From: Hyaloraphidium curvatum
Lineage: Eukaryota > Monoblepharomycota > Hyaloraphidiomycetes > Hyaloraphidiales > Hyaloraphidiaceae
Direction of reading: 5' to 3'
Assembly (NCBI GenBank): GCA_025558095.1
Contig: JAIVFI010000006.1
Span: 248,001-312,000, forward strand
Length of the DNA stretch: 64,000 bases
Part shown: positions 1,509 to 30,563 of the stretch, in pieces
Position numbering within the stretch: the stretch's first letter is position 1
Layout: every line of letters starts with the position of its first letter
The notes under the pieces: model-generated
What the model saw: the letters and a program-made list of their open reading frames with translations, nothing else
What the model was told of the DNA's origin: nothing
The model's database searches: none
Made by a program: the position numbers and the translations under genes

Positions 1509-3050
1509 TCATTCGATCGTGCACCAGCTCTGCATGGTCGCGCGCACCCCCGCGCCCCTGAGGATCCCCACGAGCCCCACGGCGATGGTGACGAGCGTGG
1601 CCGCGATCCCCCTGACGAACCCGAACGTTACTGGGACGCCGAACAGCCTCGCCAGGTTCTCGTCCACAGCCCGCTCGAAACGTTCGAGCACGGCCACCTG
1701 CGCCGCCGCGGCCGTGGAGACGGGCAGCCGGCGGCCGGCGAACGCGAGCCGGATGTCGGCGGCCGCGCGGCCGTACAGCGCGGCGTTCCGGGCGACGATG
1801 CCATTGGCGGTGGCGAAATTGAGAAGGGCGAAGAGAAGCTCGAGGGTATGGAGGGCGAGGGAACCGATGATCCAGGCCGTTGCGCACCCGGAGCCAAACA
1901 TGAAGACGAGCAGCACCACCACCGAGAGTCCGAAAACCGCAGCGTGTGCGAGATTGTAGTCTTGCGAGGCCTTGGCTCTCGCACGCCACTTTGGCGCCAG
2001 CGTGTGGTGAAGCTCTATGTACGTTTCCCACGTGCCATTTCGTTGGCCTTGGGTTTGGGAGTCTGTCGTCAGCACCGGCTCTCCTTCTTGCGCGTCGGCA
2101 TCGGCGACGCAGAATTGGACGACCTCCGAGAGGGACATCGCGATGGCCCTCGCTTCGAGCCGGCCCTCCAACTCGAGCAGGGCAACATCCGTCGATATGC
2201 CCTCCAGGATGATGGACACGTGCTGCACGACATAAACTACGGGCAGGTAGGAAAACAGCGCGGCCTTCCAAGGCACCCCCCATATGGCATCGCCGAGAAA
2301 GACGGTCGGCGTCCACGACGCGAACAACCAGTAAACCAGCTGGGCAAGGATATTCGTGACGATCTGGCGCGCGAGCTGGATCGCCGACGATCTCCGGGGC
2401 AACCCCCCTGCGCACGACGACCGCGCGCACGGGCACCACGGGTCCCGATCGCGGTGCTCCAGCATCGGCCGCGGCCGGGGTCCCCGCTCCGCCGGCGCCT
2501 CGGCGTCCCCGGCTTGCGCCGTGCCCCAGCCCGACAGCTCGATCCAGCGGGCCAGGCCGCACCACGGGCTCGCGTCCTCCGTCGGCGGCCGGCCCCAAGC
2601 CGGAACGCGCTGCGCAAGGAGGACAACGTGGAAGGCCGCGCATTCGAAGGCGAAGGCTGCGACGCCGACGGCGGCGCCGCGCGCGGAGAAGGCGCCGGAG
2701 GCCAACGCGGGGCCCCAGGCCGCGTACGGGGCGGCGACGGCCACGGGGAGCAGGAAGAACAGCGTGCGCGAGACGGGCAGGCGGTTGAGCCGCGGCCACG
2801 CCTGCGCGGCGACGAGGGCGAACGGGACGCGGAGGGGCGCGAGGGCCGCCAGCAGCCGCGCGCGCGTCATGGGGTCCGCGGCGCGGAAGTCCGCCGCGGG
2901 ATCGCTTTCCATCGGCACGAGGGAGGCAAGCTCCGGCGCCAGCGGCGGTTGCAGGGCCGCGGGCGTCGGCAGCAGCGCGAGCAGTTCCGCGGCGCTGAAC
3001 ATGCCGCCCAGCGCCTGCGGCTCCTTGGGATTCGCCGCCGCCGCGTCCAT
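1509..3050 (-). CDS. multi-pass membrane protein, family copy A
   Basis: Single-exon gene of 513 residues starting at the ATG at 3050. The frame stays open further upstream, but that part overlaps the next gene and has no family match. I recognise no named family. It is clearly homologous to the genes at 17471-19025 and 29013-30563. Shared marks are a short N-terminal motif (FSAAELLALLP), several hydrophobic segments, a cysteine cluster DPWCPC...C at residues 206-213, an ETYIELH motif before the last membrane block, and an ending of the form GILRGAGV...SWC. Five to seven membrane segments are plausible. Transport or sensing is possible, but nothing in the sequence shows a substrate. Confidence 0.75.
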   Translation of the reverse strand: MDAAAANPKEPQALGGMFSAAELLALLPTPAALQPPLAPELASLVPMESDPAADFRAADPMTRARLLAALAPLRVPFALVAAQAWPRLNRLPVSRTLFFLLPVAVAAPYAAWGPALASGAFSARGAAVGVAAFAFECAAFHVVLLAQRVPAWGRPPTEDASPWCGLARWIELSGWGTAQAGDAEAPAERGPRPRPMLEHRDRDPWCPCARSSCAGGLPRRSSAIQLARQIVTNILAQLVYWLFASWTPTVFLGDAIWGVPWKAALFSYLPVVYVVQHVSIILEGISTDVALLELEGRLEARAIAMSLSEVVQFCVADADAQEGEPVLTTDSQTQGQRNGTWETYIELHHTLAPKWRARAKASQDYNLAHAAVFGLSVVVLLVFMFGSGCATAWIIGSLALHTLELLFALLNFATANGIVARNAALYGRAAADIRLAFAGRRLPVSTAAAAQVAVLERFERAVDENLARLFGVPVTFGFVRGIAATLVTIAVGLVGILRGAGVRATMQSWCTIE

Positions 3051-3264
3051 TTGCGAGAAGGCGACGACCGGCAGCGGGATCGATGCGCGATTCGGTGGCG
3101 GTTTGTTATCGCGAAGTGCGACTGGCGCCGAAGAACTTTCGATTTCGGCCCGCCAAGCCTGGCTGGAAGATCCGCGCGAACGGTCGGCAACGTGCGAGGA
3201 TGGCGAACGGGATATCATTCGAGTATTGATACAATTCGCTCCGCACCGCAGCATCCGGCAGCTT

Positions 3265-3987
3265 TCAGTTGGGGCACCTGGGGAAGCAGGCGTACGAGAC
3301 GGGGTCGTTCGCGCCGCCCACCAGCGGGCACCACTGGCCGCCGATACGTTGGCACTGCGTGGCGTTGAACACTCCAGGGGGAGCGCGCTTCGCGATGCGG
3401 GGGTCGCCGTCCCTCTTGGCCTTGGCGGGGAGTGCGGGCGGCAGCGCGACCGGGGCGTCCGTGGGCTCGGGCAGGTTGCCGGGCTTGGACAGCAGGCTGC
3501 AGATGGCCTTGTTCGGGGCGCACGTGCCGTCGGCGCAAAAGACGAGGCCGAATCCGGCGCAGTCCACGGGCGGCCTGTAGTTCTCCGGGCACTGGTCGGC
3601 CGAAGGCACGCAGCCGCCGTCCTGGCAGGTGCTCCAGCCGAGGTCGGCGCAGGTCCTGGGGCACAGGTCGGCGCTGGGGGCGCAGATGGAGCTGCTGGGG
3701 CATAGGGTCCAGCCGGCGGAGGTGCAAGTGTCGGCGAGGGCGGCGGCGAAGGCGTCGGTGGGGTGCGCGTCCGGCGCAACAACCCGGGGGACCACGGGGG
3801 GAGCGAGGCCGCGGGCTCGGAGGCCCTGGCAGGCGTAGATGTTCTGGGCACAGAAGCCGTTGAGGCACTTGACGGTGCCGGGGGGACAGTTCGCGGGGGG
3901 ACTCGGGCGGGCGTGCGCCGCGGGGAGCAGGGACACCGCCAGGGCCGCGAGCAGGAGGGCGGCGGCGAAGGCGCTGAGGCGGGCCAT
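3265..3987 (-). CDS. secreted cysteine-rich repeat protein
   Basis: Intron-free, 240 residues. The N-terminus is a clear signal peptide (MARLSAFAAALLLAALAVS, then ...AHA cleavage). The mature part holds many paired cysteines and three degenerate tandem units of roughly C..(A/F)G(W/L)..C..(G/S).C.P......C, then a proline-rich linker containing a KAKR-like basic site and a last cysteine pair (WCPLVGG...CFPRC). Small-fold secreted proteins of this kind are common in fungi, but I recognise no named family. It is probably extracellular and disulfide-bonded. The 5' side faces a 660-bp gap shared with the small gene at 4649. Confidence 0.75.
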   Translation of the reverse strand: MARLSAFAAALLLAALAVSLLPAAHARPSPPANCPPGTVKCLNGFCAQNIYACQGLRARGLAPPVVPRVVAPDAHPTDAFAAALADTCTSAGWTLCPSSSICAPSADLCPRTCADLGWSTCQDGGCVPSADQCPENYRPPVDCAGFGLVFCADGTCAPNKAICSLLSKPGNLPEPTDAPVALPPALPAKAKRDGDPRIAKRAPPGVFNATQCQRIGGQWCPLVGGANDPVSYACFPRCPN

Positions 3988-4648
3988 TGCTGCCGATAGA
4001 GTTTTGGCTTTATTTGAGTGTTGCTGGTTTTGGATTCGAGCTCGCGGTGGTGCTGTGCGGTGCCAAGGGGGTGCTTATGTAGGGTCTCGATTTCGGGAAA
4101 TGCGGCGCAGCAGCGTCCCGAACGGTCGGCAAAGCGGCCGAAGGTTCCAGGCGGCCGAAACACCGCATTCCGCGGTCTATCCGCTTCCGAACGAACTCAG
4201 CACCGCCGCTGCGCCGCGACGGTTCGTGCACAGCGTGGCGGTTCCGAGAGCGGCAGCGCGGTGCGCGGGCGGCTTGACCACCAATTCTCGCCGGGCCGAG
4301 GCGAAGAACAACCGATCGCAAACAGAGACAAGCATAGAGCGGTGCACACACCTGGGAGTCGAAATCTCACCGGCCTGTCTCCGCGGAAGTTCCCGCGGCC
4401 ACGCAGACCCTGCTTTGTGCGGCCAGTGCTTCCGCCCGCACACCTTCGAACAAGCCCAAGGCGCACCGAGCGAGCCCGTGCCATCGCGGACGCGATTCAG
4501 GCAGGTGATGAATCGATTCCCGGGACGGTGGTCGCGCGGCAGACGGAGGTGGTCGGTGACCGCCGTCCCGCCTGTGCGCCCGAACCTCCGCGGGGACGAT
4601 ACCCTTTCTCGCCAGCTCTCCCCCTTTTGCACGGCCGCACGCTCTCCA
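3988..4648. other. intergenic, divergent promoter region
   Basis: About 660 bp between the secreted cysteine-rich gene (leftward) and the small gene at 4649 (rightward). Several long open frames cross it on both strands but look like GC-rich shadows without recognisable domains. No clear TATA box or repeat seen. Confidence 0.5.
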
Positions 4649-4965
4649 ATGGCAGTGAGCAGATCCCGCCCCCTTTTCCCGCCTGCGCCGCCGACCGCCC
4701 CCCGTCGACAGCGCCTCGTCAAGGCCTCCACCCTCAAGTCGGGCGACCGCCTGGTCCGCGACGACCGCGCCGTCGCGCTCAGCAAAGTCACGACGGACTA
4801 CGACGTGGTGCATGCGGACTATTACGACGAGGAACAGGTGCAGACGGTCACGCTGAGCTTCAGGCCCGACGAGGACGTGGAGGGTGGGTGCTGCGCTGCC
4901 TGGTGGGTAGGGATGGGGGCTGATGGGGTGCGTGGCGGGCAGTACTGGACAAGGATGAGCAGTGA
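4649..4965 (+). CDS. small two-exon protein, unknown
   Basis: Proposed exons 4649-4883 and 4943-4965, joined by a 59-nt intron with the GTGGGT donor and CAG acceptor typical of this window; this gives 85 residues. The core (KASTLKSGDRLVRDD, then alternating hydrophobic and acidic strands) looks like real protein and may be a small beta-rich fold, but I recognise no family. The last exon encodes only VLDKDEQ. An in-frame ATG at 4508 could extend the start. A homology search is needed; it could also be a chance open frame in GC-rich DNA. Confidence 0.42.
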
Positions 4966-5395
4966 GCTTGATACCAAGGACGAGCAGCGGCTTGATACCA
5001 CGGTCGCGTTCGCGGGACCGTCGCAAGGAAACAAGGGGGGTCGGCGGGCGGATGTTCCAACTCCGCTTTCGCGATAGCGAATAACTGGCTGTTTAAATAC
5101 TCTCGAAATGGACAGATCCGCCCCGATTTCATTCGTCGCCATTTCCCGCTTGGGCCCGCCTGGCTCGCATTCCGGTCAGCTCTCGGGTCCGAACGGTCAT
5201 GTCCTCCACCGCCCTTCACTCGCACGCAAAAGCAACCAGCGACATCGGACGGGTTACGACGCAAAGCCACCGGATCCGAATGGATCGATCGTCTTTGGAT
5301 CGTCCGCCAGCGGATGCGCCCAGCTCGATCGAGCTGCATGCTTCGCCACCCGCAACAAAGGACGCGTCCCCTGCGCTCTTCGCTTCCCTTCCGCG
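4966..5395. other. intergenic, nothing recognised
   Basis: About 430 bp upstream of the HD-domain gene. It contains an imperfect direct repeat (CTTGATACCA twice, near 4970 and 4991) and an AT-rich TTTAAATAC near 5092. No gene is supported. Confidence 0.5.
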
Positions 5396-6136
5396 ATGCC
5401 TCCCACCGTCAGCGACCGCGACCCCGCCTCCCTCTTCCTCGCCCTCTGCGCGCGCCTCTCGCCCGCAGTTCCGCCCACCGTCTCCGCCGCCTGGGCCTCC
5501 CGCCTCGCCTCGCTGTACTCCGCGAACGACCGCGCGTACCACACTTTGGCGCACGTCGAATGGCTGTTGAGGCTGCTCCCCGGCTCCCCCGGGCACCCTC
5601 TCGGCGCGTTCACAGACGGCGGGGAGGACTGGACCGCCGCGGAGCTGGCGATCTGGTTCCACGACGCCATGTACGACCCGCGCGCGGGAAAGGGGGACAA
5701 CGAGCGCGCGAGCGAGGCGCTGTGGCGCGAGTTCGCGGACGAGGCGTTGGTTTCCGGAGGGATGGCGGGGAAGGTGTCGCGCATGATCCTGGCCACGGTA
5801 GACCACCGCCTTCCCGAGCCCCACGACGCGACCGACGCCGCGTTCCTGGACATGGACCTCTCCATCCTCGCCGCCCCGCCGGGAAACGGTGCGGGTAGCG
5901 ACGCCTCGGGTAACGCCTCGGGATGGGACATCGGCTACGACGAATACGCCTCCCGCATCCGCCGCGAGTATTTTCACTATCCCGACGAAGCGTACAAAGC
6001 CGGCCGCGCCGCCGTCCTCCGCGGCTTTCTCGCCCGCGACAGGCTCTACTTCTCCTCCCGCGCGCGGGACTGGGAGCCCCGCGCGCGCGATAACCTCGCC
6101 CGCGAGATCGCCGCCCTCTCCCCGCCTCCCTCCTAG
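5396..6136 (+). CDS. HD-domain predicted metal-dependent phosphohydrolase
   Basis: Single exon, 246 residues, ATG at 5396. The pattern YSANDRAYHTLAHVEWLL followed by AIWFHDAMYD and later ATVDHR is that of the predicted metal-dependent HD phosphohydrolase family (COG4339). These histidines and aspartates are expected to hold the metal. Members are 200-250 residues long, cytosolic, and of unknown natural substrate. The longer in-frame extension to 5108 has no domain and is taken as non-coding. The gene ends only 4 bp before the stop of the converging gene on the other strand, so the 3' UTRs must overlap. Confidence 0.85.
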   Translation: MPPTVSDRDPASLFLALCARLSPAVPPTVSAAWASRLASLYSANDRAYHTLAHVEWLLRLLPGSPGHPLGAFTDGGEDWTAAELAIWFHDAMYDPRAGKGDNERASEALWREFADEALVSGGMAGKVSRMILATVDHRLPEPHDATDAAFLDMDLSILAAPPGNGAGSDASGNASGWDIGYDEYASRIRREYFHYPDEAYKAGRAAVLRGFLARDRLYFSSRARDWEPRARDNLAREIAALSPPPS

Positions 6137-6140
6137 CCCT

Positions 6141-7744
6141 TCACGCGTGCGTGCCGGCCTTTTGTCCGGGCGGCAGCCCCGCTTCCTCCCCGGCGCCGTC
6201 GGCAACGTCGGCGCCGTAGACTTCCCTCCCGCCCGGCCCGCCGCGCGGCGCCAGCACCCCCGCGAACCCCGCGTGCCCGGGCACCCCGAGCGCCGCCTGG
6301 CCCGCGCAGCAGAAATCGTACAGCGATTCCAAGGTGTCGGACCAGATGTCTTCGGGGAGATCGGGGGCGAGGTCGAGGATCGGGGAGGGGAGCGCGGACG
6401 GGGCTGGGGGAGGCGGAGGGTAGAGCGCGAGGAGGTCCGAGAGGGTGGTGGGGGCGGAGGGGGCCGGGAGGTCGAAGTACTTGCCGGGGAGCATGGAGAT
6501 GAAGGAGAGCACGGCGAGTGGGTTCCTAGAACAACCGAGAGCCGTGAGCTCGGAAGCGCACGGACGGGCAGACGGGGCACGAACAGGTTCATCTTGGCGC
6601 CCGCGCTTCCGACCGCCACGAAATCCCCCACGAACTTGCCGTCCGCCTTTTTCTCGACGCCGACCACCGCCAGGGCTTCCGAAACGCCCGCCTTGCCAGC
6701 CTCGGCGCACTCCTTGCAGGCCGCAAGGTCGTGCGGGTGCCGCGCGCACACGGGCACGCTCGCAAACGAGGTGCACACGGGGTGGGGCTCAGCAGGGCCC
6801 GCGGGGCCGAAGGGCGAGGCGCGGCCGCAGCACGTCGCAAAGACGGTTCCCTGCGGGACCTGCGCGCCGTGCGCGAGTCGATCTGAAACGGCGGATCGCG
6901 CGTGGTCAGCGGAAACCGCAGCGAAACCCGGAGAGGACCCACCACGGAGGTACATCCCGACCGCCGCCACCACGCTCCCCACCGCCGTCCCCTCGCCCTC
7001 GCCTCTCGGGAAGAACCCCTCCTCCCCCTCGTCATCCCCCGCTTCCTCCACCAGCGCCCCGCCCTGGACCACCGCGCCCGCGTCCGTCAGCGGGACGATG
7101 CGGCCCGACGAGACCGCGATGTGCCATTGGCGCAGCCACGCGTCGAGCAGCCGCGCGAGGTCCGGCACGGGGGGCGGCGGCGAGCCGGCGAGGCGGCCGA
7201 GGAGGAGGGAGAGGCGGAGGGCGGCGTCGGCGAGGACGTCCGGGGAGAAGGAGGGGTCCTGCTGCCGCAGAGCGGGAGGTTGCGGGGATGGGTGCGGGGA
7301 CATGCCGCCGGCGGGCGATGGGAACAGGGGCGTGTAGTCCGCCGCGGGCTCCGAGAGCGCGGGGGAGAAGCCGGCGAGCTGCGCGGCGCGGAGCCACGCC
7401 TTCTTGCGGAGCGCGTTGAGGAACACGAGGAGCAATTTCGTGCCTTCCGTGGTGGACGAGACTGCCCAGAGGTCGCCGTCGGCCGCGTCCGTGTCCGCCA
7501 TCTTCCTCGCCGAGCGCGCGAACATCGCTGCGTCCCACCGAGATCCGTCATCGCGCGGCGGCAGCGCGTCCGCCGCGACCTCCAGCAGCAGAGCGCGGGA
7601 AACGAGGGCGCCCGGGATCGACGCGCACGTCGCGCAGGGCGGCCGCAGGAACGCCGCGTTGGGGTCGACGTCGGGCGCATCGCGAATGCGGCCGCCGGGA
7701 GACGCGTGGCGCTGGCCGAAGAGGAAGGTGCCGGGGCAGGACAT
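6141..7744 (-). CDS. hypothetical protein with cysteine-rich middle
   Basis: Two exons: 7744-6585 and 6525-6141, joined by a 59-nt intron (GTTCGT...TAG) that gives ...GAKMNL|NPLAVLSF... and 514 residues. I do not recognise the family. The N-terminal half is mostly helical with proline-rich stretches. A cysteine/histidine-rich stretch near residues 310-355 (FATCC, HPVC, CARH, CKEC) could bind zinc. The C-terminus has an acidic segment with DLPEDIWSDTLESLYDFCC. The intron choice is the only GT-AG join that keeps both well-formed frames. It could be a fungal-specific nuclear or cytosolic protein; no function is claimed. Confidence 0.6.
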
Positions 7745-7994
7745 GGCGGTTGTTTCGGGTTGTTTTCGGACGCGTCGATCTGTTGACTCGATGTCGCTCG
7801 ATGAGTCTTGGCGTCCCGGTGTTTCCTATGAAGCCAAGCGGATCTACATCCGGCAGCATCGATGAAGATGTGCTCTTGAAAAGATGGCTCAGGACTGGAT
7901 CCTCTCGATGCTCCCTCAGATCGTACCAGACGCACGTCCAATCCCAGCATCAGGCGAGGCGCATGCATACATCTAGAAAGCCCAACACCGTACA

Positions 7995-9602: not shown

Positions 9603-9964
9603 CCCGCCCCCGGATGGGACGCGTGTCGTGTTTGCCGGCGTCGATGGTGAATCCTGAATTCAGACTTCAGCGCGCCCCCCATCCCGCACGGCCGCATCCG
9701 ACTGCCGTGGCGATCATGTCGGTTCGGATCCCGTCCTTTACACAGAAAGACCGCAACCGCATTCGCCGCGCCACTCGAGTCGTGGCCGTCCATCGATTGA
9801 GGGCATCCTGGCCCCTATCATCACAAACATCCTTCCTGCAAGCCCACATTCGCAGCCACTGGCATCGGTATATCCTGTCCGCTGCAATTTCTGAAAACAG
9901 ATCCATGCCGATGTCGTCGATTCCATATACCATCACAACTTCGCATCCCGCATCTTTCCCCGCG
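9603..9964. other. intergenic, promoter of the GT61 gene
   Basis: About 360 bp between the GT61 start and the stop of the TPR-like gene. Moderately AT-richer than the coding DNA around it. No gene or repeat supported. Confidence 0.5.
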
Positions 9965-12038: not shown

Positions 12039-14480
12039 TCAGGCCGCGCCCTTCTTCTCCAGCTGGTCCAGCACCCTCCTCAGCAGCCCCTCCAGCTCGC
12101 CCACCTGCTTCGCCCGCACCTCCGCGATCTCCTCGAGCTTCCTCACCGCCCCCTGCAGGCCCCCCAGCACCCGATCCACCTGGTCCGCGAACCCGTGGAA
12201 CTTTTCCTGCCGATCCTCCATCCGGTCCAGCCGCTCGATCACCCGCCTGCCGAGGTCCTTGTCCTCGTCCTGCGTCTCGACCTCGTCCGCGTCGTCGGAG
12301 TCCTGCGACACGATCCGCAGCGACCCAACCTGCTCCGCGCGCGCCAGCGCCGAGACGGGCGGCGGGGAGACGGTCTCGTAGACGGCGATCAGCAGCGCGA
12401 AAGGGAAGGTGACGACGGTCCACACGACCGCCTCGAGGGGCTTGAAGAACGGGAAGGGGCGCAGAGGGAACATGAGCACGTCGAAGAGGTTCAAGGGAGG
12501 GAAAAAGGGGCGGTCGTCGGCCTGCTTCCAGAGCTCCAGCACCCGCACGGCGAACTGGTACTCGTACAGCGTGTCGGCGTTGTCGACGATCGATGCATAC
12601 GACGAGTTGAAGATGGCTGGCGTGACATGTCAGCGCCGTCCCCATGCAGCGCCAAGCAACGCTACCCACCGATGAGCAGGTTCATGAGCACGATCCCCGC
12701 GACCGCGAGCCAGCACATGAACAGCACCGGCCCGTAGATCGGGTGGTACGTCTCGGCCATGTCGTAGTCGGCGGCCTGGAGCACCGCCTTGAGCAGGAAG
12801 TTGATGGTGCTTCCCGGGGCCAGCGCCGGGTTCAGCCCCACGACTGGCATGCGCGACACGTCAGCCCGCATGCCCGGCGGCGGGGCCACCGACACCCACA
12901 GGTCTGCGCGAACCCCACGAGCACGAGGGCGAAAAGCACCAGGAACAGCAGCGAGTCCTTGAGCATCGCCTTGGTGATGAGCATGCTCGTGCCCATGTAG
13001 CGGTACCCCGAGAAGATGGAGAGCATGCGGCACCACAGGAAGATGGCGTTGATGCTGACGAGGTCGTCTGCGGGGCAGATCGCGGTCAGCAGAAGCCACG
13101 AGCAGGCAGATGGGGTTTGCGCACAGGCCATGTCGTTGTAGTACGCTAGGCGGCCGCTGTCGGTCTGGTTGATGGCGTACATCCGGATCGCGAAGGCGGT
13201 GATGAAGATGCCGTACATCTGCGAGGTGCGTGAGCGTCCGTTGCGGCACACGGCAGGGGAAGGCTCACGATGGCGTCCAGGCCGTTCCACAGGTTGAGGA
13301 AGTAGATCGACAGGCCGACCTGCGCGGCCTGGTAGAGCTCGTGGAGGAAGTAGGCGATGGCTTGGGCCCACTGCGATGAAAGTCAGGCTCCCACAGCGTG
13401 CGCGCGGCGCCGGCGCGCCCGTACCATCAGCCACTCCTCGATCTGCGGGTACTTGTCGCGCCCGTTGACGACCAGGGTGAAGTTGAACACGAAGATGGCG
13501 AACACGCCGATCTCGATGAAGTACTGGTAGCGCGGGATACGGAGCCGCCCGTCCAAGATGCCGCCGAAGCCGACGTCCTGCTGCGTAGCCGCGCGGTAGG
13601 TGGGCAGCATGTGCGTCGGCCGAAGCATGAGCTGCCAGGGCGAGGGCGGAGGTGTCAGAATCACAGAGCCGGCAAGCCCCGTTCGGAGACCCACCGAACC
13701 CCGCCAGATCTCGTCAATGCAGTCCTGGACCGCCACGTCGGCTAGGAAATGGTCCGCCTTGATCTCCACCGCCTTTTCCAGGGCCGACGACACCGGCAGG
13801 AGGTACGCCCCGCCGTCCGCGGTCATGATGAGGTTCTGGTTCCCGTCCTCGCCCGGCGAGAACATGGGCAGGTAGCCCTGCCCGTACTCGAAGCCGAAGA
13901 GGCGGACCAGGTTGCGGTACGTGTCGGTCCTCTGGATCCGCTCCGTGAAGGTGAGCTGCCGCCCGACCTCGGTCCCGTCGGCGCGGTACTGCGTCGTCCG
14001 CCGCCAGGGACGCTTCTCCCGGCTCTGAGGCGGCTCGATGACCTCGATGGGGTCCGGCCATTTGTTCGCCAGCACCCAGACGAAGAGCTCGCCCCTGTCC
14101 GAGTAGGTGTGGACCAGCTCCTGGGCCAGCGACTCGGCGTAGGCGGCGCGGGACTCGTTCAGCTGCTTCTTGAACTCGTCCGCGTCCGCCTTGAGCTGCG
14201 CCCGCTCCATGCACACCAGGGCGACGAACACGGCCGCCAGCCCCGCCGCGTCGCGCGCCTCGTCGACGACACTTTGCGGAATCGAGATGCCGACGCGAAG
14301 ATCGGGGTCGATGGGCCGCCGCACGCGCCGGCAGATGAGCGCGTACACGTCGGTAACGGCGGAGACCATGGAAGGCGGAACGCGGGGTCTCTCGCGGGGG
14401 GCATCGTCGTCGCGTTCGGCGGGCGGCGGCGCGTCGTGCGGCGAGTCGGCGATGGAGACGGAACTGCTGGGCGCCGACAT
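12039..14480 (-). CDS. Yvc1-like TRP calcium channel
   Basis: Five exons: 14480-13425, 13370-13269, 13218-12900, 12843-12670 and 12616-12039; introns of 54, 50, 56 and 53 nt. The joined product is 742 residues, close to yeast Yvc1 (675). A long cytosolic N-terminus is followed by six membrane segments. The pore region (FLLKAVLQAADYD, then VLFMCWLAVAGIVLMNLLI) and the AIFNSSYASI stretch restored across the last intron match the fungal vacuolar TRP family. The C-terminus ends in a coiled coil (QVDRVLGGLQGAVRKLEEI). In fungi Yvc1 releases calcium from the vacuole under osmotic or mechanical stress; the same role here is inference. Confidence 0.82.
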
Positions 14481-17470: not shown

Positions 17471-19025
17471 TCAGGGCACCGGGCACACATTGTCCACGAC
17501 CATGCTCACCCCCGCCGACCTCAGCACGGACCACAGCGCCGCCGCGATCGTCACCACCGTGACCACAAACACCCTCACCGTCCCCAGCCCAACGCGGCTC
17601 CCCGCGAACCGCGCGCTGTTCCGCTCCGCCGTGGCCATGAGGAGCTCCAACTGCCTGTCGTGCGCGTCGGCGCGGGCCAGGGCGCGCGGGTCGGCGCCGT
17701 TGGGCGCGGCGGCGCACGCCTTGCGGAGGGCGAGGCGGGCAGAGACGTACAGGTCCACGAAGGCGTCGATCTGCGAGTTGCCGATGGCGAGGGGGACGAG
17801 CACGGCGAGCAAGTTCACGAGGAGGTACAGGAGGAAAATGGGGACGAAGGCCGGGATGCAGGAACCCCCGGCGACGGAAACGATGCCCCCGAGCGCGCAT
17901 CCCAGGAACATGATGGCGAAGCGGGTGAAAGAGTAGCCGACGGTTCGGGAGCGGCGTTTCCAGTTCTGCAGGTGAAGCAGTAAGGGGCGGTTGCTGCGCG
18001 CATCGCGGAGAAGACTTTACCTCTGCGATTCGCTCATGCAATTCGAGGTACGTTTCGACGGCGGGCGGCTCCGCGTCCGGCGCTCCGAGCTGGGCGCCGG
18101 GGTCGACGCTCTTTTTCAGCCTTTCGACCAGCTCGTCCAAAGCAAGGGTCATGGCGCGGCGCTGCAGGCGCTTGGCCAGCTTGAGCAAGGGGGCCGACTG
18201 TCCCAGGATCCCGTAAAGAAACGAAGACCCGTGCGCCGATAAAGATATGATGGCCAGCAAGCCCAGGATGGCCGTAAACCACGTTGTCCAGAAAACCGGC
18301 CCGAATGTGACGATGGCAGTGTAGTTCCAAGTGAACTGGATGGCGAGCAGCAAACTGCATTTGAGGCTGGATTCGCCCCAGTAGATCGCGCCCACTTCCG
18401 TCCCCACGCGGCTCAGGCACGTCGGACAAGCGCATTCAGGATCGTCGGGCACGTGGGTGAGCAGCAAGCTGGAGGGTTCGGCGGCAACGAACTCGCGGAA
18501 GCGGACGAGCAGGGCGACGGGCTGCCGCGAGTAGTCGCCGAGGTTCCGCGGATTGGAGGCTTCAATGACCGGTGCAAACTTGTCGATGTGCTGCATTATG
18601 AGCGCGCCGATAATGACCGCCAACGTCGCACCAACGGCGTAGCCGAGCTGCACGCGGGAAAACGTCTTGCCGTTCTCGACGGTGACCCCGCCGCCCGCAG
18701 GAATGAAAGCAAAGAGACAGGCAACAACGGCGGCAGGAAAACTATAAGGTAGAGTCGTGTAGAGTGCGACGATACGAATCGCCTTGTGCAGCGTCAGCGC
18801 GAGTGGATAGAACCGGACTGCGGCGCGAGTCACGGGTTCTGGTATCACAGCCAGCACCTCTGCAAGCGGCAGCCTCTCGGTGTCAGCGAGCTCGACGCTT
18901 CTGGGGTCTTCTTGCGCGGGCCCCGGGTCCTTGTCCGGCCTGTCGTCCGCGAGAAGAGCCGGAGGGGGAGCCGCCCCCGGCAAAAGCGCCGCCCACTCCC
19001 GCCGCGAAAACTTCACGGGAGACAT
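17471..19025 (-). CDS. multi-pass membrane protein, family copy B
   Basis: Exons 19025-18021 and 17965-17471; a 55-nt intron (GTAAAG...CAG) splits the conserved ETYLELH...NWKRRSR region, giving 499 residues. It is homologous to copy A at 1509 and copy C at 29013. N-terminal FSRREWAALLP, cysteine cluster DPECACPTC at residues 198-203, several hydrophobic segments (for example LLAIISLSAHG and PAFVPIFLLYLLVNLLAVLV) and a C-terminal SVLRSAGV...NVC block are shared. No known family recognised. Copies A and C appear uninterrupted here, so an intron was gained or lost after duplication. Confidence 0.78.
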
Positions 19026-19139
19026 AACGAGTGCCTCAGCTCAAGCTGCCATGGCCAGATTGGAGCAGCGCTGCCACTAGGAGTTCCGAGGACGGTCTGC
19101 TCCCTCCGATCGCGCGCGCCCTGATCGAGCCGTGCACAA
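19026..19139. promoter_or_regulatory. short divergent promoter
   Basis: Only 114 bp separate the start of membrane-family copy B (leftward) from the start of the phosphatase-fusion gene (rightward), so the two must share promoter DNA. No TATA-like element seen. Confidence 0.45.
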
Positions 19140-23044: not shown

Positions 23045-23381
23045 AGTGTGGTCGTAACGCGTTCGCGGGGGAAACGGTGCGCGTTGAAGGACAGGAAACG
23101 CCGCGGAGCGGCGGGCGACAGTGTTGTCGGAAGTCGGGCTCAGTCAGGGACTAAAGTCGGACGTGGTCCCTGGGGGACCACGGCCCCGGACGCAGGACGT
23201 CAATCAGAGGAGCGAAGCAAGAGGATGGCGCTATAAATGCGTATTGACCTTGCCGCCGTTGAGCTGGCCGCCGCTTCATCATCAAGTCGGTTGTCCCTTT
23301 CGCGGCAGCTGACGGCGCGCGCGCGCGCGACGGCTTTGCCACACTCGTCGACGCCACCTGAACTCCCTCGAAAGCATCGCG
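23045..23381. promoter_or_regulatory. divergent promoter, sulfatase / P450
   Basis: 337 bp between divergent starts. A TATAAAT at 23232-23238 lies ~145 bp before the P450 ATG and faces it. A (GC)n run at about 23315-23329 follows. No operator recognised. Confidence 0.45.
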
Positions 23382-24995
23382 ATGTCCGAGACGATTCCGC
23401 TCCTGTTGGTCGGCGGCGCGCTCGGTGCGGCGTGGCAGATGAACAGCGCCGTGGCGTGGACCGCGGCGGCCGTCTTCTCGCTCTACGTCCTCCTCCTGAG
23501 CTTTATCAATGGCCGTTGGTCGAACCGTCGTCCGGACGATCCCCCGTACCTCTCGGGCTGGATTCCGGGGCTGGGACTGGCGCTCTCGCTCTCCGCGCGC
23601 GGGGAGGGGTTCCTGGCGGACTGTGCGCGCCGCCACGGGCCCGTCTTCACCATCTACGTTTCCGGCCGCCGTATGACCTTCGTAACCAGCCCAACGATGC
23701 TGGACGCCATCGTCAAAGACACGCGGCATTTCCAGTACGCGCCCGTCAGGGCCACTTTCTACCACCAGGCCGGCGGCGTGGACGCGTCGCTCCCCGGCCT
23801 CAAGGGCTTCATCGAGGACGAGGCCAAGGTGTTCCAGAAGTTCCTCCTCGACGACGCCTCGGCGATGGCACGGAGGTTCTCGACGTTTGCGCTCCCAAAG
23901 CTGGAGTCGGAGCTGGCGTCGGCCGCGGATTCAGGCGAAGCCGTGGACCTCTTCCACCTGGCCAAGAAGCTCGTCTGGTACGCCGGCACGACGGCCCTCT
24001 GCGGCAGCGATTACCCCATCGCGGGCGACAATGCGGACGCCTTGCTCGCCGCCTTTGACTTTTACGAGGCCGCTTTCCCCCTCATGGCCGGCGGCGCGCC
24101 TGCTTCGATGCTCCCGACCGAGTCGCGCAACGCCCTTAAGGCCTTTGTCGACCTCATGACTCCCAAGGAGGTCGACGGGCTCTGGACGTCCTTCCTGAAC
24201 GGCATTCCCGGGATCACAAAGGGCCGCGCCAGCGGCTCAGTGGCGGACGCCCTGCAGACGTCGCCGAAGCAGCCATCGCCCGCCTTTGCCGCCCGGACTG
24301 TCGCCTTCCTGAAGCGCGGTCTCGCCTCCGATCCTCGGCGGATCGGATCGAGCGATCTCCTGCTCGTCCACGCGGCGATGGCCAACACGGCCCCTGCTCT
24401 CTACTGGACCTTGAAGAACGTTTTGCAGGGGATCAGTGATGGCGCGCCGTGGGCTGCCGACGCGGTCGCCGAATCCAAGGGGTGCTTCCCGGGCGGCAAG
24501 TTCGACCCCGACGTCTCCGCACCGACGTTGGACGCCTGCCTCACGGAATCCCTGCGCCTCGCTTCCTCCCCCTTCGTCACTCGCGCCGCGGTTCCAGACG
24601 CCTCGGACCGGTCCGCCCGCGTCAAGATCCCCGGCACCCGGTTCTCGGTGGCTCTGGGCGAGCAGATCGTCTTCCCCGCGCGGCTGGCGATGCACCTCAA
24701 CCCGTCGCTGTACGAGGGCGGGGCCCCGTTGGATGCGTTCGATCCCGCGCGGCACTTGGGAGCGGGCGCCGCCGAGGCGGCGAAGAGGATGGCGGCTTTC
24801 GGCGCGGGGCAGAGCATCTGCCCGGGGCGCAGGTACGCGGGGAGCGAGATCAGGTGCCTGGTTGCAGCCGCGCTGCGGAGCTGGGATTTCGAGGTCGTGG
24901 AGGACGGGGGAGGAAGGCTGAAGCCGGGGCGGTGGGGATCGGGAGTCCTGCCACCGGTGCAGACGACCAAGGTGCGGATCACGAGGAAAATGTAA
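23382..24995 (+). CDS. cytochrome P450 (CYP7/CYP8-like)
   Basis: Single exon, 537 residues. A hydrophobic N-terminal anchor (residues ~5-42, with LLLVGGALG and AAAVFSLYVLLLSF) should hold it in the ER membrane. The ExxR helix is CLTESLRLASSPF; the heme loop is FGAGQSICPGRR with the ligand cysteine at residue ~480. The spacing and the AFGAGQSICPG form, plus the I-helix region HAAMANTAPALYW, resemble CYP7/CYP8/CYP39-like sterol or prostanoid enzymes more than the usual fungal CYP51 or CYP5xx types. It would use NADPH-P450 reductase; the substrate is unknown. It converges on the PhyH gene with only 33 bp between stops. Confidence 0.88.
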   Translation: MSETIPLLLVGGALGAAWQMNSAVAWTAAAVFSLYVLLLSFINGRWSNRRPDDPPYLSGWIPGLGLALSLSARGEGFLADCARRHGPVFTIYVSGRRMTFVTSPTMLDAIVKDTRHFQYAPVRATFYHQAGGVDASLPGLKGFIEDEAKVFQKFLLDDASAMARRFSTFALPKLESELASAADSGEAVDLFHLAKKLVWYAGTTALCGSDYPIAGDNADALLAAFDFYEAAFPLMAGGAPASMLPTESRNALKAFVDLMTPKEVDGLWTSFLNGIPGITKGRASGSVADALQTSPKQPSPAFAARTVAFLKRGLASDPRRIGSSDLLLVHAAMANTAPALYWTLKNVLQGISDGAPWAADAVAESKGCFPGGKFDPDVSAPTLDACLTESLRLASSPFVTRAAVPDASDRSARVKIPGTRFSVALGEQIVFPARLAMHLNPSLYEGGAPLDAFDPARHLGAGAAEAAKRMAAFGAGQSICPGRRYAGSEIRCLVAAALRSWDFEVVEDGGGRLKPGRWGSGVLPPVQTTKVRITRKM

Positions 24996-25028
24996 TGATC
25001 AAAACAACATCCCAAAATCGCGAGCACC

Positions 25029-26233
25029 CTACAACTTGTTCCGCTTGTCCGTCTTGTTGGCGTACGAGCCCGGGAACCCGCCCGTCCTCAGCAGCTCGGC
25101 GTGAGTCTCCTCGGGCGTGTTCTCCTTGCACGTCCTCATGTAGCAGAAATCGAGGAAAGGCTCGGTGGGCCTCTGAAGGGGGTCCTCAGGGCCGATCGTG
25201 TGGACGACCCGGCGAACGTCGGCCATGGCGCCCGACTGCTTGCGTGTGCGGTCAACGGCATCCCAGGGGAGGTTGGAAGTGCCGCTCATGTAGTGGTTGG
25301 TCAGCTTTGGGCGCAACGAAGAAAAGCGAGAAAGAACGACATCAGCGCCATCAACACCACACACTGCGTGAAAACCTACGACGCGACGGTAGTCCTGGGA
25401 CCGGTTCTTCGTCGATCGGTGGAGCAGGTACCCGTTGAAGAAAAGGACGCTGCCTGGCTTCAGATCCACCGTCACTTCCTCGCCCCAGCCGTCCGACTTG
25501 GCCACGCCGTCGAAGCCGTACGATTCCTTCGCGAAATCGTACTCGTCCACGTTGGTGTGCTCCCGCTGCGGGAAGAGGATCCCCCTCCGGTGCGACCCGG
25601 GCAGCACGCGGAGCGTCCCGTTCTCCGCCGTCGCGTGGTCGATGGCGATCCAGATGGCGGTGAGCGAGCGGTCGCGCGTTGGAATATAGGCCTCATCCTG
25701 GTGCCAGGCCTGCCCCTGGAAGCCAGGAGGCTTCACGAAGAGCATCGTCTGCATGCACTTGACCGAGCCGTCCCACCAGCCGGGCGCCATGTGCGCTCCC
25801 GTGAGCTGGCCGAGGATCGGAGCGATCCGGGGGTGCGAGATGTAGCGCCGCATGACCGGTGAGACGTAATGGGGCATGTGTATGGCCAAAACATTCTTCA
25901 GGACCTCCGAATCGGAGGAATCGGCTGGCAGAGGCTTGATGTTCGACGAAGGATAGCCGCCCTGAGTTTGAGAGACGCCACCAACGACAAGCGAGGGCAG
26001 CCAGTCACTCAGGAGAGGTCTAAGATAGTAACGCAGGTGCCACGCACCTTCGCAATTGTAATGAAGTCGCGCTTGAGTTCCTCGAGCTCAGCGGAGGGGA
26101 CGAGCCCGTCCACGATGAGGAACCCATCCCGCAGGTAAGCGGCCACCTGCTCCTCGCTCAACGGCGGCCTAGAAGCAGTTGACGGCGCCTGCCACGCCAA
26201 ACTCGGCGATTCCAGGGCGGGAGACACGGACAT
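25029..26233 (-). CDS. phytanoyl-CoA dioxygenase (PhyH) family protein
   Basis: Exons 26233-26048, 25961-25380 and 25304-25029 (introns of 86 and 75 nt), 347 residues. An N-terminal helix (LSEEQVAAYLRDGFLIVDGLV) is typical of the family. The iron site shows HQD in QAWHQDEAYIPTRD and a distal histidine in FNGYLLHRSTKNRS; the RRV|LTNHYM region is restored across the second intron. The fold is a 2-oxoglutarate/Fe(II) oxygenase; substrates in the family vary widely (acyl-CoAs, small metabolites), so the name describes the fold only. The in-frame upstream extension to 26323 is not needed. Confidence 0.86.
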
Positions 26234-26353
26234 TTCGGTGCCGGGCAAGAACTGGCGGACCAATCCTTTGCACCGTAGTTTGCCACACACAGTCACGCTT
26301 CTAGCACGCTTTACTGCTTTCACGCTTATTGTCGCCTCGTGCTACAACCAGTT

Positions 26354-26847
26354 ATGCTGTCCTCTACGCAATCCGGAACCGCCGGCGCCCAGAGCCGCGC
26401 TTCTTCCGAGGGACTTGGCAACGCCCCGACGGGACGAAACGAGGAGCTGGCTTCCGAGGGCTCCGGCCGCGTTCTGACGGGCGTACCCCGCAACGACCTC
26501 GAGGAAAGGAAGGGGCTTCAGCAGATGGCCGAGGTGCGTGTCTTATCTAGTTCGAACGGGAGAGCTCGAGTAACGGCGCGCTGACGTGGACGCCGATGCC
26601 AAAGAAAGCCGGAAAGGGCTCCGAGAACAAAGGTGAAAGGGCAGCGGGGCGAATATTCTTAGCCATTGACATTTTCTGGCCAGCCGGAGTTATCAAGGGG
26701 GAGGAAGACCCGGCCAAAGTCAAATCCGAGGACTCGTCTGTCAATCGCGCTGCTGGCGCCGAGTTCTCGGGAAGCACTGCCGGCGAGCTGCCTTCGACGA
26801 CGGCTTCGGCGATCAAGGAGACGGAAAGCGGTCGCGGGGCTCGCTAG
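26354..26847 (+). CDS. small hydrophilic protein, doubtful
   Basis: Two coding-like pieces, 26354-26533 and 26605-26847, can be joined by a 71-nt intron (GTGCGT donor, AAG acceptor) to give 140 residues. The product is rich in serine, glycine, glutamate and lysine (NDLEERKGLQQMAE; KVKSEDSSVNRAAGAEF) and looks disordered. No family recognised. The acceptor is weak, and the two pieces might be separate or non-coding. Confidence 0.3.
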
Positions 26848-26897
26848 AGGCTGGCTTTTGACGATGATCAAGGTTCAGTCACATACAGCTCACGTGC

Positions 26898-28784
26898 TCA
26901 ATCTGCCCTCTCCCGCTCCGTCCGATCATTCAGCTCCGCAACCCTCTTCCGCCAATCTTTCAGGCCACCTGGCTTCAAAATCTCCTCTACATCGACCGTG
27001 CCGTCCACCACGGAGACCGAGATCGCCGGATCCACCTCCTCCCAGACGGGCTTCTTCCACATAGCCTCCCTCGCCCCGGGCACAGACGGGAGCCCAAAAC
27101 AGATGACCTTATCGGGCCCACGCCGCCAAGCTATCCTCTCCTCCGAGTGCAGGGAATCGTTCGAGTAGTACGCATCGTCGAATGGCCTGCGCCCGCGCTG
27201 GACATCGTCAAAGACGTCGTGCCGATACGCGGTCCGGACGTTGGGCACGATCGCCACGCGGCCCATTCCCAGCGCCCACAGGTCCTTGTCGAGAAGCGAA
27301 CACTCGCTGGCCGGGCACTCGGTGCCGTTGGGCTTCGCCGCGCGGAACCTCAGTCCGAGGAGGAACGGGTGGGGAATGAGGGCGGAGATGCCGTTCCAGC
27401 ACGACCAGACCTGCACCGGCAGGCCCCTTTCGAAGCGAGCGCGGCCGAGAGGATCGCCCAGGAATCGGTCGCGGTACCAGATCTTGGGCACGGCAAGCAC
27501 GTCCCCGGAAAGATCGCGGGCGACCCAGGAGTCGTAAAAGTCGCCGCCGCCGCCAGGGCCCCTTTCGCGGGAACGAATGAAGCGCCAGAAGTCGAGACCG
27601 CATACGTGGGATGCCGCTGCTAGAGAAGCTGGCTGGCTATTGCGACTGGAACCGTCAAACTTGCTCCCTCGTGAACCCTGCACGACAAGAAGCTGGTAAA
27701 CGAGCTCCAGCACATCCTCTGCGCAAAAGAAGACGTCGTTGAGGAAGAGCACGGCGTCCCAGACAGGCCGGTCGTCCTCTAGCCCTTGGTCCAGCAGAGG
27801 CTCCAGCGCGGCATTGCGCATCTTTGCCAGCTCGAGAATTCGGAGCGCGCGCGACCAATCCGTGCGCACGTTGGGTCCGCGAGCGACAATTCGGTGCGGG
27901 ATCTTGTGTTGCGAAAACGAGCGCCGCAAGAGAAGCAGGAGCGGCTGCGTCAGATCGTCCGAGCCATTCTCGTAGATCGAGAGGAAGAGCGGTTCCGCGC
28001 TGGCTGCGGCCAACGACTCGCGAGGCACAAGGCGCCGTTCCAAGATCCTGCCATGTTCCTCAGTCCGGCCTCCCTTCTCTGGCCCTTCAAGACTGAGCAG
28101 GTACTGACGAACGAGCAGGAGCTGCCTCCCAAAGTTGGGCAGGACCGCCTGGGAACCGTGCAGGTTCGCGGCGACGAATATCCGTTTCCCCCTCAGCGAC
28201 GCGTACCTCCGCCTCCTCGAGTCCGTGAACGCGCACTGGGGCAGATGGAAGTAGGCGTGGTCCGGCGGAATCTCGGGCAGGCCCAAAAATGGGAGCGAGA
28301 GAAGCCGCAGCGTGTCGTTCACCGGATCATCCGCGAAAGACTCTCCACGGCCGTCCCTTGCCGCCAAGTCCCCGAGCAGCGCCCGCTGCCATTCGGATGC
28401 CGGCGCAAACTTAGGAGTCACGCCGGGAGGCAGCTCTTCTCCGAATGCCCAATGCCCCAGGATAGCCGATAGTCCGAACGGCGCCCGACGAAACATTGGC
28501 TCCAGGACATAGAACGAGAGCAGGGAAAGCCCGAACGGGTTTCCGGTGGCTGGCACAACGTGTAAAAGGATATGAACGAGCGCTGCCGACGAAAGAACAG
28601 CCAAGAAAAGCACGAAAGCCGCGGCCCGTGGAAGGAGAAGCGCGTCGTCCTCCGACGCGCTTTTCCACCCCAACGCGGTCCGGACGGCCCGCAGAAGCGC
28701 TTGGAGATGCCGCGTCCGACGGACCGCGAGCGCCGATAACCGCCTCAGCACCACCGGCAGTCGGAGGGCGCGCAGGCGGACCAT
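26898..28784 (-). CDS. CAP59/CMT1-like glycosyltransferase (GT69)
   Basis: One frame open for 628 residues, with a probable in-frame 57-nt intron at 27676-27620 (GTTCAC...TAG); removing it gives 609 residues and restores ...LLVVQ|AAASHVCGLDF. A membrane anchor at residues ~52-78 follows a basic tail (type II topology). Motifs KRIFVAANLHGSQAVLPNF, SIYENGSDDLT, AVLFLNDVFFCAEDVLEL and CGLDFW are those of cryptococcal mannosyltransferase CMT1 and capsule protein CAP59. Family members transfer alpha-1,3-mannose in the Golgi; the acceptor here is unknown. The gene is divergent from membrane-family copy C. Confidence 0.85.
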   Translation of the reverse strand: MVRLRALRLPVVLRRLSALAVRRTRHLQALLRAVRTALGWKSASEDDALLLPRAAAFVLFLAVLSSAALVHILLHVVPATGNPFGLSLLSFYVLEPMFRRAPFGLSAILGHWAFGEELPPGVTPKFAPASEWQRALLGDLAARDGRGESFADDPVNDTLRLLSLPFLGLPEIPPDHAYFHLPQCAFTDSRRRRYASLRGKRIFVAANLHGSQAVLPNFGRQLLLVRQYLLSLEGPEKGGRTEEHGRILERRLVPRESLAAASAEPLFLSIYENGSDDLTQPLLLLLRRSFSQHKIPHRIVARGPNVRTDWSRALRILELAKMRNAALEPLLDQGLEDDRPVWDAVLFLNDVFFCAEDVLELVYQLLVVQGSRGSKFDGSSRNSQPASLAAASHVCGLDFWRFIRSRERGPGGGGDFYDSWVARDLSGDVLAVPKIWYRDRFLGDPLGRARFERGLPVQVWSCWNGISALIPHPFLLGLRFRAAKPNGTECPASECSLLDKDLWALGMGRVAIVPNVRTAYRHDVFDDVQRGRRPFDDAYYSNDSLHSEERIAWRRGPDKVICFGLPSVPGAREAMWKKPVWEEVDPAISVSVVDGTVDVEEILKPGGLKDWRKRVAELNDRTERERAD

Positions 28785-29012
28785 CTGGCCCGCGTCGCGC
28801 CGAGAGAGCGCGCCGCAAACCGGCCCCTATCTCCGCATCTGGCAAGCTCCTCGGGGCCGGTAACACGGCGACGACGGCGGAATCCTTCGCTCCACACTGG
28901 CTGCCGGCGGCAACGACAACTCGCGTGACGACGGCGCGATTGGGTCCGCGATCGTGTGGCGCGTGCGCACGGCGGGGGGGATCGCGGCGGACAGCTTCCG
29001 CAGAGAGCAATC
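28785..29012. promoter_or_regulatory. divergent promoter, GT69 / membrane copy C
   Basis: 228 bp between two divergent start codons; any promoter elements must be shared. No TATA box seen. Confidence 0.45.
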
Positions 29013-30563
29013 ATGGCGGAATCGAACGTGCCTCTCGAACGCGGTCCTCTCAAGCTGAATGCCGCCGAGCTCGCTGTGGTCTTTCCGCGGCCCGCGCCGC
29101 AGGTCCCGCCCGAGGCATCGTTGCCAGAGGGCCTGAGCCGGGCCTCGTGCAAAACCGAACTGGGTGCGGATGCAGATCGTGAGTCGACCGGACCGCCAAG
29201 TGTCGAATCTGTACTTGTGACGCTGCAAGCGATGGAGCAGCCCGCGCTGGCTTCTATGCTTGCCACGGTCCGCGCGACTTCCGCGCTCCACATCGCGACT
29301 CTGGGGTCGCTTGTCATCTACTGCGCCGGAACTGCAGCAACCGTCATTGCAGCAGCGGGACTCGTATTCTGGCTCAATGACGGATTGTTCGGAACGCGTC
29401 AGATTGCAGCCAGCCTTGCCGGCATTGCCCTGTTTTGGGCCTGCGTGCTGGTTCCCCAAATCATGGGTGCCCAGCTCTCACGTGCACGGCCCGGCTTGGC
29501 TGAATGGTTTGCCGTGAACCTCGTCGCCATTCGCAGCTGGGGCGACGCCGTTCTCGCGCACTCGCCGCTGTTCGACCACGTGGACGGTGATGCAGCCTGC
29601 CCTTGCAGCCGGTGCTGCTCTGGCGTGATAGCATGGTCGTTTTGGGAACGCGTCATCCGCATCGTGCCGATGCACCTCTTCTCGGCCTTTGCGATCTTCA
29701 CGATGGCTTGGACCCCGCTGGTCCACTTCGGATCAGCATTCTGGAGCAGTTGGTGGGGGATCACCTTGGGCTCTTTCCTCGTGATTTTCGATGTAGTTTA
29801 CAATGCGGGCGTTGTTGTCTCACGATTGCCTGGTCCCAGTTCGGCGGAAGTTGCGCTAGCAACTCGTATCTACCTGCGAGCGAGCTTCCGTGCGATGCGT
29901 GACCTTTTGGAGCGATCCCGCTCGTTGCTTCTGCACACTGGTGACCAAATGGGGCCTCCAGATGATCACAGGAACGACGAACCCGGGGACTCAGCATTTA
30001 ATGGGCAGGAGCTCTATGTTCAGCTGCACTTTAGCTACAAGCGCCGCTGGAAACTTCTTGGCTCGCAATCCGCCTTTACGAACTTCTACACCGGAATAAC
30101 GCTGTCCCTTTTCCCTGCTTCCATTCTTGCTGCAATCATTATCAACCTCGCGGCGGGCACCTGCGTGACAGCATGGAGCATTCTCTCGTTTCTCACCGTC
30201 ATCTACACTTTGGCCTCGGACATCGCCTCGCTTCCGGCTCTGAACTCGCAGATCGATGCGCTTGCGCGGCTTTACTCAGATGCGCGGGTCTCGATCCGTG
30301 CAATGCTCGCTGAAGCCGCACACCTTCCCGAAGGCAACCCCGTCCGCTCTGCCGCGGCCAGGGAGCTCAAGGCGCACGCAGAGCTGCTCGCGGTTTTCGG
30401 CGACGTCGAGGGGCTGCGTGCCACGTTTGTTGGGATACCCATCACATGGGGCCTGGCCAAGACCTTGGCCGTCACGATGATCACGCTGGCGGTGGCTTTG
30501 TGGAGCGTGCTCAGAGGCATTGGGGTCGTCTTCACGATGCAGAGCGTGTGTCCTGGAGTTTGA
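29013..30563 (+). CDS. multi-pass membrane protein, family copy C
   Basis: Single exon, 516 residues, ATG at 29013. It is less GC-rich than the other two copies but clearly homologous: KLNAAELAVVFP near the N-terminus, cysteine cluster DAACPCSRC at residues 196-201, ELYVQLHFSYKRRWK, and an end of the form SVLRGIGV...SVC. Hydrophobic segments include ALHIATLGSLVIYCAG, FWACVLVPQIMG and ITLSLFPASILAAIIINLAAG. The two neighbouring segments RLYSDARVSIRAMLAEA and AHAELLAVF before the last membrane helix are also conserved. No known family recognised; predicted polytopic membrane protein of unknown role. Confidence 0.78.
   Translation: MAESNVPLERGPLKLNAAELAVVFPRPAPQVPPEASLPEGLSRASCKTELGADADRESTGPPSVESVLVTLQAMEQPALASMLATVRATSALHIATLGSLVIYCAGTAATVIAAAGLVFWLNDGLFGTRQIAASLAGIALFWACVLVPQIMGAQLSRARPGLAEWFAVNLVAIRSWGDAVLAHSPLFDHVDGDAACPCSRCCSGVIAWSFWERVIRIVPMHLFSAFAIFTMAWTPLVHFGSAFWSSWWGITLGSFLVIFDVVYNAGVVVSRLPGPSSAEVALATRIYLRASFRAMRDLLERSRSLLLHTGDQMGPPDDHRNDEPGDSAFNGQELYVQLHFSYKRRWKLLGSQSAFTNFYTGITLSLFPASILAAIIINLAAGTCVTAWSILSFLTVIYTLASDIASLPALNSQIDALARLYSDARVSIRAMLAEAAHLPEGNPVRSAAARELKAHAELLAVFGDVEGLRATFVGIPITWGLAKTLAVTMITLAVALWSVLRGIGVVFTMQSVCPGV

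Follow-up and report, generated by a model that had tools for sequence, protein, structure and literature searches.

A large family of seven-transmembrane proteins with a predicted layout like that of insect odorant and gustatory receptors in a fungal genome

Three paralogous genes and their relatives in the genome

The window analysed here is a 64,000-nucleotide stretch of the Hyaloraphidium curvatum genome (assembly GCA_025558095.1, contig JAIVFI010000006.1, positions 248,001 to 312,000). It holds three paralogous genes, members 1, 2 and 3, for membrane proteins with a C-x-C...C cysteine cluster, which an earlier note, made from the sequence alone, had described as a three-copy family. We found that they belong to a far larger family, and the predicted architecture of its products resembles that of the seven-transmembrane ion channels (7TMICs), the superfamily of the insect odorant receptors (ORs) and gustatory receptors (GRs).

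Members 1 and 3 are uninterrupted genes with the boundaries originally assigned to them, whereas the boundaries of member 2 (17471-19025, minus strand) held only once a 55-nt intron was added, the removal of which yields a protein of 499 aa. The splice joins ...ETYLELHERIAE to NWKRRSRT... in frame, within the conserved ETYLELH...WKRR stretch (E-x-Y-x-x-L-H...W). A family profile whose training set included members 1 and 3 and excluded member 2 matched either exon of member 2 with an E-value of about 1e-47 in a search of the window. Similarity thus spans the whole length, and the three genes are full-length homologues, as had been claimed. The same profile detected no fourth family member in the window. 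The cysteines of the cluster lie at the residues previously reported, and in all three proteins a fixed His stands seven residues upstream of the first Cys (Table 1).

We searched the assembly to which the window belongs, which comprises 31.9 Mb on 55 contigs. Each search with a full-length member recovered at least about 81-85 loci, and the union of four such searches contained at least 176. A fifth search, for which the C-terminal exon of member 2 served as query, gave 150 matches, many of them at places not previously found. The union of all five contained 238-248 loci on 44 of the 55 contigs, the count varying with the joining of pieces. The family therefore consists of at least 238 distinct gene loci in this genome, not of three copies. 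A two-sample overlap estimate gave about 324 loci, a rough figure that assumes equal catchability, and we put the lineage-specific fungal repertoire at roughly 240-320 genes. Member 1 has a 62% identical paralogue on another contig (C14), and for members 1 and 3 more than 80 further loci each were found in the genome. No close relatives were found in prokaryote and viral sequence collections.

The copies are scattered and mostly non-tandem, with 20 of 200 neighbour gaps shorter than 3 kb, and some contain in-frame stops. Median pairwise identity among members is 26%. In close pairs (54-82% identical) the ratio of nonsynonymous to synonymous divergence (dN/dS), calculated by the Nei-Gojobori method, was about 0.26-0.43, which indicates that the copies are under purifying selection. 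The closest pair found (L052 and L053, at C12:60163-61626 on the minus strand and C12:69957-71450 on the plus strand) is an inverted pair with 82% identity, 8 kb between the two genes, dN of 0.10 and dS of 0.24, a sign of ongoing duplication. At about 30 loci of the fifth search (query positions 46-52) the gene closes with an exon of some 130 aa, the start of which lies shortly ahead of the invariant Cys in the loop between transmembrane segments (TM) 5 and 6. At the one such locus that was checked (L027, near position 1500), an AG acceptor (..GATACAG) precedes A-S-G-T-C. This common 3' intron, which is missing from members 1 and 3 and lies about 36 codons downstream of the intron of member 2, may mark a large subfamily.

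Table 1. Positions of the three family members and of their predicted features in the window
Feature	Coordinates	Strand	Details
Member 1 (P0001)	1509..3050	-	513 aa, one open frame, single exon
Member 1, TM7/S7b	1554..1625	-	aligned with member 3 residues 479-502
Member 1, C510	1521..1523	-	equivalent of C513 of member 3
Member 1, C389	1884..1886	-	equivalent of C384 of member 3
Member 1, H199/C206/C208/C213 cluster	2412..2456	-	
Member 2, exon 2	17471..17965	-	164 aa, TM5 to C-terminus
Member 2, intron	17966..18020	-	55 nt, GT..AG, GTAAAG...TGCAG
Member 2, exon 1	18021..19025	-	335 codons, N-terminus to TM4-TM5 loop
Member 2, H191/C198/C200/C203 cluster	18417..18455	-	
Member 3 (P0003)	29013..30563	+	516 aa, one open frame, single exon
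Member 3, H189/C196/C198/C201 cluster	29577..29615	+	predicted cytosolic TM2-TM3 loop, probable zinc site
Member 3, C384	30162..30164	+	predicted extracellular TM5-TM6 loop, probable disulfide partner of C513, 47/47 rows
Member 3, TM7/S7b (residues 479-502)	30447..30518	+	predicted pore helix, most conserved TM segment
Member 3, C513	30549..30551	+	predicted extracellular C-terminal tail, 47/47 rows

Membrane topology and invariant residues

Alignments of 35 members and of 47 rows (46 distinct genes) were examined, and topology statistics were computed on 40 sequences. The proteins are about 470-540 aa long, slightly long for a 7TMIC. As the earlier note had supposed, this is a membrane protein family: seven hydrophobic segments (S1-S7, corresponding to TM1-TM7) are predicted across the alignment, each with a Kyte-Doolittle hydropathy (KD) above 1 in 72-100% of the aligned sequences, S1 and S3 being the two weaker ones. 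The N-terminus (median 95 residues) and loops 2-3, 4-5 and 6-7 (medians 83, 80 and 68 residues; range of these loops 66-112) are long and rich in Lys and Arg, and loops 1-2, 3-4 and 5-6 have medians of 11, 11 and 4 residues, these loops and the C-terminal tail spanning 4-14. Near the membrane the density of Lys and Arg is 0.110 on the N-terminal side and 0.039 on the opposite side, and the sign of the difference agrees in all 40 sequences. By the positive-inside rule, this bias predicts an N-terminus inside and a C-terminus outside the cell. Seven TM segments, an intracellular N-terminus and inner loops longer than the outer ones are among the published criteria for recognizing 7TMICs (PMC7746228), and all three are computed for this family.

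The most constant residues, numbered here as in member 3, fall into two groups. H189 and C196 are present in 47 of 47 rows and C198 and C201 in 46 of 47; the corresponding H-x6-C-x-C-x2-4-C pattern arose in 2 of 9,600 shuffled family sequences. C384, the sole Cys of the TM5-TM6 loop, and C513, after TM7, are each present in all 47 rows. With the predicted topology, the H-C-C-C cluster lies in the cytosolic TM2-TM3 loop and the two single cysteines lie outside. The cluster is probably a zinc site, because four fixed soft ligands would sit in a reducing compartment, and C384 and C513 probably form a disulfide, because each of two outer segments has one lone fixed Cys. The metal or redox site envisaged earlier is supported as a prediction, zinc being likelier than a disulfide at the cluster; the outer pair had been noticed only in part.

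Further nearly fixed positions include R285 and R289 in the extension of TM4, N411, L420, Y421 and A424 in that of TM6, and T491, L500, R501, G504 and T508 in or after TM7. Mean entropy was 1.50 bits for TM7, by far the best-conserved TM helix, versus 2.7-2.9 bits for TM1-TM6, and low values (1.4-1.8 bits) were also obtained for the linker before TM7, the H-C-C-C loop, the TM5-TM6 loop and the tail. Purifying selection together with the freedom of TM1-TM6 gives the pattern expected of receptors whose pockets vary but whose pore helix is held in common. When the cytosolic segments were examined for helical periodicity, the S6 extension reached weak significance (p 0.02) and the other segments mostly none.

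Fold comparisons and competing explanations

The expectation of an OR/GR fold was set down ahead of all fold searches. Models were built from the three paralogues of the window only, one of full length (predicted local distance difference test (pLDDT) 48, predicted template modelling score (pTM) 0.41) and one of S3-S7b (pLDDT 52.7, pTM 0.44), both of low confidence. The helices come in the same order in both: S5 and S6, each some 50 residues long, are followed by S7a, by a short linker of two strands and by S7b (in the full-length model S5 330-381, S6 385-436, S7a 443-467, S7b 479-502, then a tail of about 14 aa). The split of TM7 into S7a and S7b and the extensions of S4-S6 appear in both, pLDDT reaching about 60-72 over S6-S7b and less over S4-S5. 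This S5-S7b layout resembles the helix boundaries in the structure of the gustatory receptor BmGr9 (S5 287-339, S6 345-389, S7a 395-409, S7b 424-444; PMC11100771).

When the full-length model was compared with the PDB by Foldseek, chains of the mosquito receptor AgamOR28 ranked first and second of 350,542 (E 0.16, probability 0.69). A second aligner placed BmGr9 at the top (Z 7.6, 238 residues aligned), with 15 insect OR/GR entries in the first 32 rows. For the S3-S7b model the same aligner gave the aphid OR5-Orco complex as the top match (Z 9.6, root-mean-square deviation 6.2, 243 of 313 residues). OR/GR entries made up 16 of the first 35 rows, and most of them aligned over the stretch from S3 to the end of S7b; in Foldseek, OR/GR entries stood at ranks 7, 10, 15 and 27, after designed helical bundles.

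Several results speak against a 7TMIC assignment and have to be set beside these rankings. With models of pLDDT 48 and 52.7, Z scores of 7-10 fall into a grey zone for an all-helical protein: the G-protein-coupled receptor (GPCR) TAS2R14 follows closely in the full-length list (Z about 6.6-6.9), and in the list for the S3-S7b model Z scores of 8-9 also go to soluble helical bundles (syntaxin, MukF). The structural criterion for 7TMICs is likeness to the tertiary structure of Orco with a DALI Z above 10 and a TM-score above 0.5, and the best Z scores from these low-pLDDT models were those to BmGr9 and to the aphid complex given above. None of the 35 members matched Pfam 7tm_6 or 7tm_7, or any other Pfam family above the cut-off, and no match to a PDB entry was obtained by sequence or profile search, so that the novelty claimed earlier holds at the level of sequence families. 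Alignment to the C-terminus of Orco with hhalign was at background (probability <1%, score 14.0 versus up to 17.3 for shuffled or reversed decoys), a weak test, as the Orco profile consisted of two near-identical sequences. The TM7 signature TYhhhhhQF is also absent, T491-L-A-V-A-L-W-S-V retaining at most its T; the authors who define the motif as (T/S)Yhhhhh(Q/K/E)(F/L/M) regard it as diagnostic yet not definitive for 7TMICs (PMC7746228). A search of the genome with Pfam 7tm_7, 7tm_6 and DUF3537 (PF12056) gave no match and was uninformative, as the controls were unmatched too. One of the 35 members had a weak match to GPHR_N (E 0.0069), which we judged to be due to chance.

On balance we estimate a probability of about two in three that these are seven-transmembrane proteins built, and most likely working, like 7TMIC (insect odorant/gustatory receptor-like) channels. 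The best reading is that the family is a fungal offshoot of the 7TMIC/GR-like channels, or a look-alike of them, that has diverged and expanded hugely, with a presumed role as chemoreceptors. The case rests on the agreement of fold ranking, topology, loop lengths and conservation and on no single score, and the label is 7TMIC-like, as opposed to proven member, because of the results for the TM7 motif and the sequence profiles. We infer a 7TMIC fold from the models, and likewise channel activity, a chemosensory role and the zinc and disulfide chemistry. In the mechanism that we propose, the variable S1-S6 bundle would form an outward-facing ligand pocket that differs between paralogues, the cytosolic extensions of S4, S5, S6 and S7a would form an anchor domain for subunit assembly, and the conserved S7b would line a shared ion pore that opens when a ligand moves S5 and S7b. 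To this the family would add the zinc site of the cytosolic S2-S3 loop and a disulfide from the S5-S6 outer loop to the tail, tying the outer end of S7b to S5/S6. In BmGr9, S5-S7b coupling links ligand binding to the gate (PMC11100771); in the present family the outer cysteines would fasten the end of S7b to the S5-S6 hinge, the site of ligand-to-gate coupling in insect receptors. The nearly invariant R501, at the outer end of S7b, may alter ion selectivity. The fuller proposal of an insect-sized set (about 240-320) of 7TMIC-type ligand-gated channels that expanded independently and carry both the zinc site and a pore-helix-clamping disulfide appears to us evenly poised between true and false.

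The likeness to ORs and GRs might instead be generic to bundles of long helices, the family being an unrelated fungal orphan fold with seven TM segments and a zinc-stabilized cytosolic loop that serves, for example, as a transporter, a sensor scaffold or in self/non-self recognition. The absence of sequence similarity to any 7TMIC, the weakness of the fold models and the invariant H-C-C-C and C-C residues, undescribed for 7TMICs (PMC7746228, PMC9998090, PMC11100771), would all fit such a fold. However, ORs and GRs were the most frequent top group in both fold comparisons and aligned in order across nearly the whole membrane domain, and the N-in/C-out topology, the long inner helices and the focus of conservation on the last helix are what a 7TMIC would be expected to have; we consider an orphan fold unlikely, though still to be reckoned with.

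An expanded family of fungal GPCRs would likewise combine seven TM helices with large size and variability, and class T GPCRs occur among the rows of the full-length comparison, at Z 6.6-6.9. This explanation is disfavoured by topology, as the charge bias gives N-in/C-out in all 40 sequences, opposite to GPCRs, and long inner loops with a short outer C-tail fit poorly; moreover, no Pfam GPCR match was found among the 35 members and no GPCR row in the first 50 of the S3-S7b comparison. We regard it as improbable. More improbable still is a mobile or otherwise selfish dispersed gene family of largely intron-poor copies. The scattering over 44 contigs, mostly without tandem arrays, and the in-frame stops in some copies are in its favour, but the same invariant residues are kept at 26% median identity, synonymous exceed nonsynonymous changes (dN/dS about 0.3), no mobility enzyme domain was found by Pfam in the 35 members, and the 3' intron common to many copies (one checked) speaks against simple retroposition.

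Neighbouring genes and known systems

Three chitin-synthase loci in the genome, together with the CAP59-type mannosyltransferase and TRPY1-type domains in the window, identify the genome as fungal. The flagellar genes IFT57 and IFT46 gave no match above the cut-off in the genome (IFT57 sub-threshold matches only), which argues against, without excluding, a zoosporic fungus. Between two family members, at 13383-14480 on the minus strand, lies an open reading frame (ORF) with a TRPY1 N-terminal linker helical domain (E 2e-14), part of a fungal TRP-type channel. For a deaminase ORF at 35990-36877 (+), the match to Inv-AAD (invertebrate AID/APOBEC-like; E 1.5e-12), unexpected in a fungus, was a little stronger than that to the general dCMP deaminase model; the product could be a divergent dCMP-type deaminase. 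Two ORFs at 38382-39449 (+) and 41126-42277 (+), 1.7 kb apart, each contain an AAA_5 (dynein-related/MoxR-like) domain and are possibly a local duplication or a single split gene.

Among seven-transmembrane proteins, the PAQR/adiponectin receptors are also N-in/C-out and bind zinc, through ligands that are mainly His inside the membrane, and their loops are short. In the present family, by contrast, the Cys and His residues lie in a long, predicted cytosolic loop, there is no Pfam match, and PAQR proteins were not among the listed fold matches. The predicted layout, which the earlier note could assign to no family, is that of the 7TMIC superfamily (insect ORs and GRs and GR-like proteins): seven TM segments, N-in/C-out, tiny outer loops, long inner helices and, in the models, a split last helix ending at the C-terminus. 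Plant DUF3537 proteins, in which the TM7 motif is unrecognizable (PMC7746228, PMC9998090), and PHTF, both distant 7TMICs, share this general layout but are small families. The chytrid GR-like proteins (GRLs) SpunGRL1 and SpalGRL1 (Benton 2020, PMC7746228), likened here by description, are fungal, have seven TM segments, were recognized by the same topology criteria and retain one of the four positions of the TM7 motif. In two surveys (PMC7746228, PMC9998090) the fungal GR-like proteins are confined to two Spizellomyces chytrids with a single gene each, as against at least 238 loci here, and the searchable literature, subscription papers being outside its scope, yielded no description of a comparably large family in fungi. 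For that literature, hundreds of such genes in a single fungus, marked by a zinc-type cluster and an outer Cys pair, are new. Even if the fold assignment should fail, a family of this size without a Pfam entry is a notable annotation gap.

Insects are the textbook case of a channel fold expanded into hundreds of chemoreceptors. If the proteins are 7TMIC-like channels, the family would be a second, independent expansion, in a fungus, of the fold used for insect smell and taste; it would suggest a GPCR-free route by which a fungus senses its chemical surroundings and would offer a new channel set for ligand screening. Like the insect GRs (BmGr9, Gr43a, Gr64a) and ORs (Orco, MhOR5, AgamOR28), the group that supplies the best fold matches of its models, the family is large, divergent and multigenic and is predicted to have seven TM segments, N-in/C-out topology, short loops outside and long ones inside, S5 and S6 each about 50 residues in length, an S7a/S7b split (in the model) and an end soon after S7b. 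It differs from them in having no detectable sequence similarity and no TYhhhhhQF motif, and in addition it has the H-C-C-C cluster between S2 and S3, the outer Cys pair and the almost invariant R501. Of these, the zinc-type cluster and the two outer cysteines, all invariant or nearly so, are simple, testable departures from the insect design.

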